59,537 bases of DNA from Marinifilum caeruleilacunae (GTDB lineage: Bacteria > Bacteroidota > Bacteroidia > Bacteroidales > Marinifilaceae): NCBI RefSeq assembly GCF_013141825.1, contig NZ_RZNH01000034.1, positions 1-59,537 on the forward strand, read 5' to 3'. Below, one piece after another: positions 32,280 through 34,677 of the stretch (position 1 is its first letter; the number at the start of each line of letters is the position of its first letter). The notes under the pieces were generated by a model that saw nothing but the letters and a program-made list of their open reading frames with translations, did not search any database and was not told the DNA's origin. The translations under genes were made by a program, and so were the position numbers.

Positions 32280-33212
32280 ATGAAAGCCCCGATTAAAATC
32301 TTTGCTGGTTCCAATAGCGAACACCTGGCAACAAAAATTGCAGATGCTGCTGGTTTAAAAGTTGGAGAATCTAGCATTATTCGATTCAGCGATGGAGAAT
32401 TTGAAACTGCTTACGAAGAAACAGTACGTGGTGCACACGTATTTATCGTACAATCAACTTATCCTCCTACTGACAATTTAATGGAACTATTGTGGATGAT
32501 TGATGCAGCAAAAAGAGCATCGGCCTACAAAGTTTGCGCTGTAATCCCTTATTTCGGTTTCGCACGTCAAGACAGAAAAGATCGCCCAAGAGTTGCAATT
32601 GGTGCAAAATTGGTTGCTAACCTTTTAATGGCTGCTGGTGTTGACCGTGTAATGACAATGGATTTACATGCTGACCAAATTCAAGGATTCTTTGATGTAC
32701 CTGTTGACCACCTTTATGGTTCTTCAGTTCTTCTTCCTTATATCGAAGAATTAAAGCTTGATAACCTTGTAGTGGCATCTCCTGATATGGGTGGTAGTAA
32801 AAGAGCAAATGCCTATGCAAAATATTTAAATGCAGGTTTAGCAATTTGCCACAAACGTAGAGAGAAAGCAAATGTAGTTGGAGAAATGACTGCAATTGGT
32901 GAAGTTGAAGGCAAAAATGTTGTAATCGTAGACGATATGATTGATACTGCGGGTACCATTGCAAAAGCTGCAAATATGTTGAAAGAAAAAGGTGCAAAAA
33001 GCGTTCGCGCCATTGCGTCACATCCAGTACTTTCAGGACCAGCTTATGAAAGAATCGAGGAATCGGCTTTAGAAGAGGTAATCTTTACCGACTCTATTCC
33101 ACTAAGAGGAGAAAGTCAAAAGATTAAATCTTTAACCATTGCTGATATTTTCGCGAAAACAATTCAGAATGTTTACAATTGCGAATCAATCAGTTCCAAT
33201 TTTATTTTATAA
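32280..33212 (+). CDS. prs: Ribose-phosphate pyrophosphokinase
   Basis: Makes PRPP from ribose 5-phosphate and ATP for nucleotide, His, Trp and NAD synthesis. The 310-residue protein has the flexible-loop region YFGFARQDRKDRPR, the DLHADQIQGFF segment, and the PRPP motif VVIVDDMIDTAGT. It is the usual class I enzyme. It immediately precedes the rplY promoter. Confidence 0.97.
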   Translation: MKAPIKIFAGSNSEHLATKIADAAGLKVGESSIIRFSDGEFETAYEETVRGAHVFIVQSTYPPTDNLMELLWMIDAAKRASAYKVCAVIPYFGFARQDRKDRPRVAIGAKLVANLLMAAGVDRVMTMDLHADQIQGFFDVPVDHLYGSSVLLPYIEELKLDNLVVASPDMGGSKRANAYAKYLNAGLAICHKRREKANVVGEMTAIGEVEGKNVVIVDDMIDTAGTIAKAANMLKEKGAKSVRAIASHPVLSGPAYERIEESALEEVIFTDSIPLRGESQKIKSLTIADIFAKTIQNVYNCESISSNFIL

Positions 33213-33216
33213 TTAT

Positions 33217-33224
33217 TATCTTTG
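33217..33224 (+). promoter_or_regulatory. -7 motif for rplY
   Basis: TATCTTTG, a perfect TAnnTTTG match, starts five bases after the prs stop codon. Transcription would begin near 33231, giving a leader of about 97 bases. Confidence 0.7.
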
Positions 33225-33253
33225 CGCGGATTTTAGGTAAAACTATTATAAAC

Positions 33254-33313
33254 GTGTGATGGGATATCAATAGAACTTTTTTACCGGGTGATGACATTGG
33301 TATTGAGTAACAC
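33254..33313 (+). promoter_or_regulatory. Putative L25-binding leader RNA that mimics 5S rRNA loop E
   Basis: In the rplY 5' leader GUGU (33254-33257) pairs with ACAC (33310-33313), and GAUAUCAAU (33263-33271) pairs with AUUGGUAUU (33296-33304) with two wobbles. Between them GAUGG (33258-33262) faces GAGUA (33305-33309). From memory of E. coli 5S rRNA, loop E is GAUGGUA facing GAGAGUA, so the five-base core on each strand is identical. Loop E is the known binding site of L25. The element ends 14 bases before the rplY start codon, so bound L25 could block translation. The structure is read by eye and the function is inferred. Confidence 0.55.
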
Positions 33314-33327
33314 AAAATAATTTTCAA

Positions 33328-33909
33328 ATGAAAACATTAGAATTAAAAGGTTCTTTAAGAACTGACTTAGGAAAAAAAGCGACTAAAGCTTTACGTAGAG
33401 CAGAAATGGTTCCTTGTGAATTGTATGGTGGTGAAGAAAACATTCACTTTGCAATTAGCGAGAAAGACATCAACAAATTGCTTTATACTCCAGAAACTTT
33501 CATCGTAAAATTCGACGTTGAAGGTAAAGTGTTTACTGCAGTAATGAGAGAAGTTCAATTCCACGCTACTAATGATAAAGCACTTCACGCTGATTTTTTC
33601 CAGGTTTTCGAAGACAAAGCTTTCGAAGTTCAGATTCCAATTAAGGTTGAAGGATTCGCGAAAGGTGTTCAGGCCGGTGGTAAATTGGCAGTGAACTTGA
33701 GAAAACTAAAAGTAAAAGGTTTAATGAAAGATCTTCCTGAATTCTTGCCTATCGATGTAACTGAATTAGGTCTTGGTAAGAGTACTCAGATTAGAGAACT
33801 TGCTTTCGATAACCTAGAACTATTGAATGCTAAAAACGCCGTAGTTGTACAGGTTAAGCTTACAAGAGCTGCTCGTGCTGCTGCACAGGCTGCAACTACA
33901 GAAGAATAA
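33328..33909 (+). CDS. rplY: 50S ribosomal protein L25, Ctc form
   Basis: A 193-residue L25 with the N-terminal 5S-rRNA-binding domain (about 1-90; GSLRTDLGKKATKALRRAEMVPCELYGG) and the C-terminal beta domain (about 95-185) that marks the longer Ctc/TL5 type. It binds loop E of 5S rRNA in the large subunit. Family knowledge is secure. The leader contains a loop E-like structure, which suggests autogenous control. A strong terminator follows, so it is transcribed alone. Confidence 0.97.
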   Translation: MKTLELKGSLRTDLGKKATKALRRAEMVPCELYGGEENIHFAISEKDINKLLYTPETFIVKFDVEGKVFTAVMREVQFHATNDKALHADFFQVFEDKAFEVQIPIKVEGFAKGVQAGGKLAVNLRKLKVKGLMKDLPEFLPIDVTELGLGKSTQIRELAFDNLELLNAKNAVVVQVKLTRAARAAAQAATTEE

Positions 33910-33931
33910 TTTATTCTCTGGCAAAAAATAT

Positions 33932-33964
33932 AACCTCCCGGGCCTTTGGCATGGGAGGTTTTTT
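33932..33964 (+). terminator. Terminator after rplY
   Basis: AACCTCCC and GGGAGGTT close a stem with an inner GGCCTTTGGC segment, followed by a T run. Confidence 0.88.
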
Positions 33965-34016
33965 AATACCAAATTTTCTGATATCAATACACATCCATAG
34001 ATTCAAACAATTATTC

Positions 34017-34032: not shown

Positions 34033-34677
34033 ATGATTCAATTCCTGAAAAACATATTGGGGAAAATATCTTCCCCTAATAGTGATAAAAAAAATGATCC
34101 AATGAAATATCTGGTTGTGGGTTTAGGCAATATTGGCGCAGAATATCACAATACCCGTCACAATATTGGCTTTAGTATTTTGGATGCATTGGCAGAAACC
34201 GCAAAAATTGAGTTTAAAGATGCTCGATACGGTGCCATGACAGAATACAAATTTAAAGGCAGGACTTATATTCTGGTGAAGCCAAGCACCTATATGAACC
34301 TTAGCGGAAAAGCCGTAAACTACTGGTTGCAAAAAGAAAAAATCCCAGTTGAAAACATGATGATATTGGTGGATGATCTTGCTCTTCCATTTGGAACTTT
34401 ACGCTTAAGGCCAAAAGGCAGCGATGCCGGACATAATGGTTTAAAGCACATCAACGAAACTTTGGGGCATCAAAGTTATGCTCGCCTTCGATTTGGTATA
34501 GGCGACGATTTTCACAAAGGCCAGCAGGTTGATTACGTTCTGGGAAAATGGACCGATGAAGAAAAGGAAAAACTACCGGAACTATACAAAATCTGTATTA
34601 ACATGATTAAAGGAATGAGCACCATTGGTATCCAACGTACAATGACTGCTTATAACACCAAGAAAAACGGTAAATAA
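34033..34677 (+). CDS. pth: Peptidyl-tRNA hydrolase
   Basis: Releases tRNA from peptidyl-tRNA that drops off the ribosome. The core begins at [24 protein letters not shown], with the catalytic His in TRHNIG and the conserved YMNLSG and DDLALPFG. The annotated 214 residues include a 23-residue lysine-rich N-terminal extension ([11 protein letters not shown]...). The usual family start corresponds to the ATG at 34102. The promoter position leaves the choice open. It lies 7 bases ahead of the S4-domain gene, so the two are likely cotranscribed. Confidence 0.9.

Follow-up and report, generated by a model that had tools for sequence, protein, structure and literature searches.

The rplY leader of Marinifilum caeruleilacunae raises the question of whether an mRNA can carry a copy of the rRNA site bound by the protein that it encodes. 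We analysed a 59,537-nt stretch of this genome (contig NZ_RZNH01000034.1, forward strand; hereafter the window). A first-pass annotation, made from the letters alone, had described a GUGU/ACAC helix, an internal loop of GAUGG facing GAGUA and a nine-pair helix at 33254-33313, 14 nt from the ATG of rplY. All of these were recovered when the coordinates were rechecked, and the element proved to be larger than first noted, with a pseudoknot, a K-turn-like junction and an order-wide distribution coming on top. We propose, with a probability of about 0.8, that the leader is a cis-acting autogenous element of rplY which mimics loop E of 5S rRNA and represses translation via ribosomal protein L25. 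The features of the locus, with the two helices named P1 and P2, are as follows.

32280-33212, plus strand: prs
33217-33224, plus strand: match to the Bacteroidota -7 promoter box, TATCTTTG, read from the sequence
33236-33242, plus strand: 5′ strand of the predicted pseudoknot, GGUAAAA, with the hairpin loop as partner, placed by partner-exchange scores
33254-33257, plus strand: 5′ strand of P1, GUGU (DNA GTGT), read from the sequence
33258-33262, plus strand: 5′ strand of the loop E copy, GAUGG (DNA GATGG), equal to 5S positions 72-76, by comparison with GAUGGUA of the host 5S rRNA
33263-33271, plus strand: 5′ strand of P2, GAUAUCAAU (DNA GATATCAAT), placed by covariation
33273-33294, plus strand: K-turn-like junction, with GA/GA by position in 24/54 leaders of the family; G273 A274 face G293 A294, with a three-nt bulge GAU at 33290-33292 and a C-stem ACU 33275-33277 / GGU 33287-33289
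33279-33285, plus strand: 3′ strand of the predicted pseudoknot, UUUUACC, within the apical loop, placed by partner-exchange scores
33296-33304, plus strand: 3′ strand of P2, AUUGGUAUU (DNA ATTGGTATT), placed by covariation
33305-33309, plus strand: 3′ strand of the loop E copy, GAGUA (DNA GAGTA), equal to 5S positions 100-104, by comparison with GAGAGUA of the host 5S rRNA
33310-33313, plus strand: 3′ strand of P1, ACAC, read from the sequence
33314-33327, plus strand: A/U-rich 14-nt spacer followed by the ATG at 33328, marked by the tight motif-to-start distance
33328-33909, plus strand: rplY, two-domain (CTC-type) bL25, 193 aa, by NF004132 profile match
34033-34677, plus strand: pth

The gap between prs and rplY is 115 nt in the window. 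The sequence TAnnTTTG, which we take to be the Bacteroidota -7 promoter consensus, is matched by TATCTTTG, and a leader starting from this box would be roughly 95-100 nt long. The rplY product was identified as bL25 by its score against NF004132 (244 bits, cut-off 225); it matched bL25/CTC models along its full length and is not the short one-domain bL25. Relatives of this protein are present in the solved ribosomes 9i5t and 7jil, and the two-domain L25 is therefore a ribosomal protein. L25 retains the blocks GK, LR, YGG, Q-H and H-DF of its E. coli counterpart, which have a role in RNA contact. In G471, G475, G478, G517, G537 and G556, the L25 matches were seen to break near residues 30-42, pointing to an insertion within the 5S-binding domain of L25 in some families.

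In the host genome, three 5S matches were found, all of them reading GAUGGUA ... GAGAGUA over loop E. The two strands of the leader loop, which we take to stand for 5S positions 72-76 and 100-104 in E. coli numbering, agree with this loop E over 5 + 5 nt in order, strand and register, so that the likeness first drawn from the E. coli strands holds for the 5S rRNA of the host as well. In both RNAs, helices enclose pair positions 72-76 with 100-104 (GAUGG/GAGUA) on either side, although the sequences of these helices differ between 5S rRNA and the window leader. Five of the seven pair positions of loop E are copied; 77-78/98-99 (UA/GA in 5S rRNA) are absent from the window leader, where GA/UU forms G-U and A-U pairs instead. 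Unlike the window leader, the leaders of a second family, f2 (presumably Bacteroidaceae, judging from its L25 sequence; 81 genomes, 78 of them with L25), retain A99 of 5S rRNA: the element was present in 30/30 leaders read, the best 30 of the 78 loci, with the core RAUGG-N ... A-GAGUA.

A survey of 5S rRNA across the order gave a match in 34/60 genomes, and among the 30 loci listed 27 were readable over loop E, with 21 as in the host, 2 with AAUGGUA, 2 with AAGAGUA and 2 with GAUGAUA/GAAAGUA. Position 72 was G in 71, A in 32 and C in 1 of the 104 distinct leader arms. As A72 was found both in these arms and in 2/27 readable 5S loci, the change G72A appears to be tolerated by both RNAs. The two GAUGAUA/GAAAGUA loci, L371 (G499) and L358 (G500), are altered on both strands, at 76/100, and no leader element was found at rplY of these two genomes (L115, L075).

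The first-pass annotation had named covariation as a check on the helices, and in P2 it was indeed detected. A tree-aware test was carried out with anchors set from sequence only, which reduced 139/191 leaders to 104 distinct arm pairs; in its null the substitutions were re-placed on the tree, as our own approximation of R-scape, with the tree derived from the same 36 columns. The nine P2 pairs took ranks 1-9 of 630 column pairs, four of them with E <= 0.01, and an earlier tree-aware run with a cruder choice of candidates was weaker (best E 0.005, two pairs under 0.05). When the arms were swapped between sequences at loci with a single candidate core, 20 multi-core loci being left out, P2 pairing fell to 65.7% in the window's family (94.7% with own arms; 38 sequences) and to 63.9% in the other families (83.6% with own arms; 54 sequences). 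In the alignment A3, whose rows were preselected so that its counts lean towards structure, 93.5% of the P2 cells were paired, compared with 78.1% when shuffled and at most 46.7% when slid; the sequence-anchored tree-aware test is free of that bias. P1 was paired in 98.3% of the A3 cells with nearly invariant pairs, two of the four being constant and the other two changing two-sidedly in 2 and 3 of 75 rows, while the inner pair was unpaired in 5/75 rows. Being nearly invariant, P1 offers little covariation evidence and is not proven by it. The comparison shows a conserved RNA structure with covariation upstream of a ribosomal protein gene.

In isolation, the 64-nt motif was predicted to form both helices, with pair probabilities of 0.87-0.95 for P1 and 0.63-0.88 for P2. 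When a 146-nt stretch that includes the leader was folded, the predicted minimum did not contain the motif (z -0.81), and we therefore relied on the comparison, through which the fold, the match to loop E of the host, the position and the linkage to rplY have been established.

Partner exchange between the 5′ end of the leader and the apical loop gave further support to a larger fold in the window's family. Among its 50 distinct sequences, own partners scored 16.97, whereas exchanged loops reached 13.79 (sd 0.43, maximum of 2000 15.42); in the comparison with shuffled loops the scores were 15.47 for own partners and 11.97 for shuffles (sd 0.31). The pairings GGUAAAA/UUUUACC and CGGGG/CCCCG (the two main forms) and GGGUAG/CUACCC occur there, as expected of an H-type pseudoknot with changes on both sides, which is accordingly predicted for the window's family only. 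In the other families the own partners scored 10.78 and exchanged loops 10.26 (sd 0.27, maximum 11.34), the comparison with shuffled loops stood at 10.26 for own partners and 9.61 for shuffles (sd 0.30, maximum of 50 10.39), and f2 gave no support for the pseudoknot (own 9.37, shuffled loops 9.61); only single cases, such as L059 with nine pairs, stand out outside the window's family. GCTT in the 5′ lead together with RAGC in the hairpin was seen in 26/30 f2 leaders and 14/55 others; this combination, which has no statistical support, could be a short pseudoknot. The K-turn signature, GA/GA by position, was found in 24/54 family leaders, the window included, and all 24 have a fully paired three-bp C-stem (for example ACU/AGU, GCC/GGC, GCU/AGC and ACC/GGU). 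The window and these leaders thus display by sequence a C-stem, a three-nt bulge and tandem G-A/A-G, consistent with a K-turn.

The element was then followed through related genomes. In the window's family, an L25 match was obtained in 54/57 genomes and AUGG...AGUA lay near the start in all 54 leaders read, 53 of which passed the P1 + P2 pairing rule (L033 fails through one A-C mismatch in P2). Close relatives therefore retain the loop and, by this mechanical rule, both helices, as the first-pass proposal implied that they should. In an order-wide sample, L25 was present in 109/119 genomes and 108 leaders were read, one contig-edge gene being left out. The rule recognised the element in 56/108, and eight variants (L041, L048, L057, L066, L073, L084, L104 and L140) were added by eye, so that 52/108 leaders fail the rule and 44/108 remain after inspection. 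About two fifths of the sample have no recognisable element, and autoregulation of this kind would thus not be universal even within the order. Genes scored without the leader often follow prs immediately: the end of prs was seen within 250 nt of 40/47 of them (gap 14-158 nt, median 35.5; 26/40 within 40 nt), as opposed to 45/114 genes scored as having it, where the gap was 90-140 nt (median 116). The box TAnnTTTGC stood within 140 nt of the start in 101/114 leader-positive versus 13/47 negative genes, where the 47 negatives include three (L067, L074 and L077) that do pass the P1/P2 rule. The class sample had L25 in 116/119 genomes, and 29 leaders were read besides that of the window, one of them mispositioned; the three from the same order all carry the element, and it was not seen by eye in the 26 from other orders, among which is the mispositioned one.

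Linkage to rplY was traced further by pattern and model searches. An exact-pattern scan of named genomes returned at least 80 loci, the named lineages being Bacteroidota and mostly Bacteroidales, with Parabacteroides, Porphyromonas, Dysgonomonas, Odoribacter, Barnesiella, Prevotella and Muribaculaceae among the loci listed. In 79 of the 80 listed, tblastn placed an L25 start on the same strand no more than 200 nt downstream; the remaining locus, L210, is near the locus end, and its downstream sequence resembles an L25 start by eye. A covariance model built from the window's family only, R1, matched just 4/395 genomes of a phylum sample and was too narrow. A second model, R2, built from rows chosen beforehand for having at least five of eight P2 pairs, matched 125 of 295 order genomes at E <= 0.01 with one match each; the 30 matches listed of these 125 were all directly upstream of L25, and 19 of the 30 came from genomes outside the model. 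In the phylum sample, R2 matched 6/6 genomes of the same order, all six used for model building, and in the 389 other Bacteroidota genomes it gave only two weak matches (E about 0.04), at loci without an L25 match at E <= 1e-3. The host genome contained a single R2 match at E <= 10, and R1 had a second match there at E 5.5. By these searches, the element appears consistently linked to one ribosomal protein gene, rplY.

Some individual loci deserve mention in their own right. In G526, where no leader element was seen, rplY is immediately preceded, at the end of a contig, by a terminator-like hairpin and, before it, the 3′ part of a 5S rRNA gene (L056:2062-2170, minus strand), and rplY of this genome may stand behind an rRNA operon. 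The f2 leaders L169, L314, L317, L321 and L323 carry an extra CATCGTGTGATA about 20 nt upstream of the 5′ arm of the motif, which looks like a duplication of the 5′ half. In L019 (G051), the leader and the first half of the L25 gene are close to those of another genus (L018, 96.7% over 1642 nt) and the middle part of the gene to its own genus (L017); the gene looks like a recombination-like mosaic.

Since the core of the leader copies the 5S site that L25 binds, L25 probably stops its own production once 5S rRNA runs out. With L25 in excess over free 5S rRNA, the N-terminal domain of the protein would bind the copied loop, that is, the five pair positions (72-76 with 100-104) between the two helices. 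Binding would stabilise the hairpin, which stops 14 nt short of the rplY ATG, the stabilised hairpin would keep the 30S subunit off the rplY mRNA in a phylum that makes no use of Shine-Dalgarno sequences, and L25 synthesis would fall. The pseudoknot to the 5′ end of the transcript, in the window's family, and the K-turn-like bend, in part of the family, would tighten the fold. The distance from motif to start codon has a median of 14.5 nt and a 5-95% range of 11.6-19 (n = 132), and that from promoter box to motif floats between 19 and 38 nt (n = 132). No terminator-like site was found in 33180-34000, which favours translational control. According to PMC6847099, Bacteroidetes lack Shine-Dalgarno sequences and mRNA structure tunes initiation; 5′ UTRs of B. 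thetaiotaomicron have a median of 32 nt with 13.5% above 100 nt, as given in PMC7366714. From the fixed distance to the start, the lack of a terminator and the lack of Shine-Dalgarno sequences, we infer a competition between L25 and the 30S subunit.

Binding and its outcome are separate questions, and what the leader presents is a candidate binding site; L25 might thus bind it with a different result, a change in mRNA stability, premature termination or activation. We regard this as unlikely, as no terminator-like site was found in 33180-34000, and the motif is fixed relative to the start codon and floating relative to the promoter box, as a translational element would be. It is also conceivable, with still lower probability, that the internal loop is a generic loop E-like module and that another protein recognises the leader or that the leader acts alone. 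Loop E-like stacks of noncanonical pairs do recur in unrelated RNAs, and two of the seven pair positions are missing from the copy. However, its ten specified bases agree in order, strand and register with the site that L25 itself binds, they stand before the L25 gene and, in the R2 search, nowhere else in the host genome, and f2 extends the copy with A99 in 30/30 leaders read.

A reading at the level of DNA, in which a transcription factor binds an inverted repeat, draws on the sequence conservation of the P1 arms GTGT/ACAC and on their place just downstream of the promoter box, but we give it hardly any weight and rejected it: P2 varies freely yet keeps RNA pairing, G-U included, the core strands lie a variable 13-47 nt apart, and the distance held fixed is that to the start codon. 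Chance origin was likewise rejected, given the core in 54/54 family leaders, the covariation of P2 and the single R2 match in the host genome. Translational repression by L25 through a mimic of loop E accordingly remains our preferred reading of the leader.

Beyond the single locus, we lean towards the view that Bacteroidales evolved, without a shared origin with the gammaproteobacterial system, an mRNA decoy of 5S rRNA, a sensor of free L25 with five or six loop E pair positions, locked in some lineages by a K-turn and a 5′-end pseudoknot, that would couple L25 output to 5S supply. If true, no earlier mRNA copy of a protein site on 5S rRNA is known to us, and the coupling would operate in an order to which major gut bacteria belong. 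The ligand can be named from the sequence because its binding site is copied. As a putative mimic of 5S rRNA, the leader lends itself to tests of molecular mimicry, and it marks out a defined candidate site of regulation in common gut bacteria, which translate without Shine-Dalgarno sequences.

Resemblance to the rRNA site of the encoded protein is a frequent trait of ribosomal leaders, and the window leader shares it with them. Further ribosomal leaders resemble the rRNA site of their protein beyond those cited below; among the leaders known to us, none copies 5S rRNA. Such resemblance is described for some leaders in Eckert et al. (2020, PMC7247131); Table 1 of that paper holds 20 leaders, none for L25, the L25 entry is the known enterobacterial leader, and the paper alludes to additional unpublished motifs. 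No Bacteroidota L25 leader was found in the open-access literature searched: the main text of PMC8040213 gives candidate leaders for L7/L12, L20 and L10 and does not mention L25, which is absent from the main text of PMC2864571 as well. The element may be present, unannotated, among the 3161 candidate RNAs in the supplementary tables of PMC8040213. Rfam 15 gave no match to the element, either in the window or across 18 related loci, the one hit among the latter being a tRNA. RF03131, the rplY leader of E. coli, did not match the window, its model had no hit to the window's rplY leader at E <= 10 and none to the 18 related loci at gathering score, and the E. coli control was found.

Autoregulation of rplY in gammaproteobacteria, which the first-pass annotation had mentioned, is borne out by the review PMC10931766, in which bL25 represses its own translation and this control is tied to the short one-domain bL25 and a weak GAGA Shine-Dalgarno sequence. 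RF03131 and the window leader are both structured elements before the rplY start codon. However, RF03131 is a 26-nt hairpin, CCUGUUGCUGGGUCGCCUGUAGCAGG, without the loop E core, whereas the window leader has the loop E copy, and the gammaproteobacterial system serves a short one-domain bL25, whereas the protein of the window has two domains and 193 aa. According to that review, features of L25 autoregulation occur only in species with short bL25 (PMC10931766); the element described here suggests that two-domain bL25 has a second solution of its own, unrelated to the gammaproteobacterial one.
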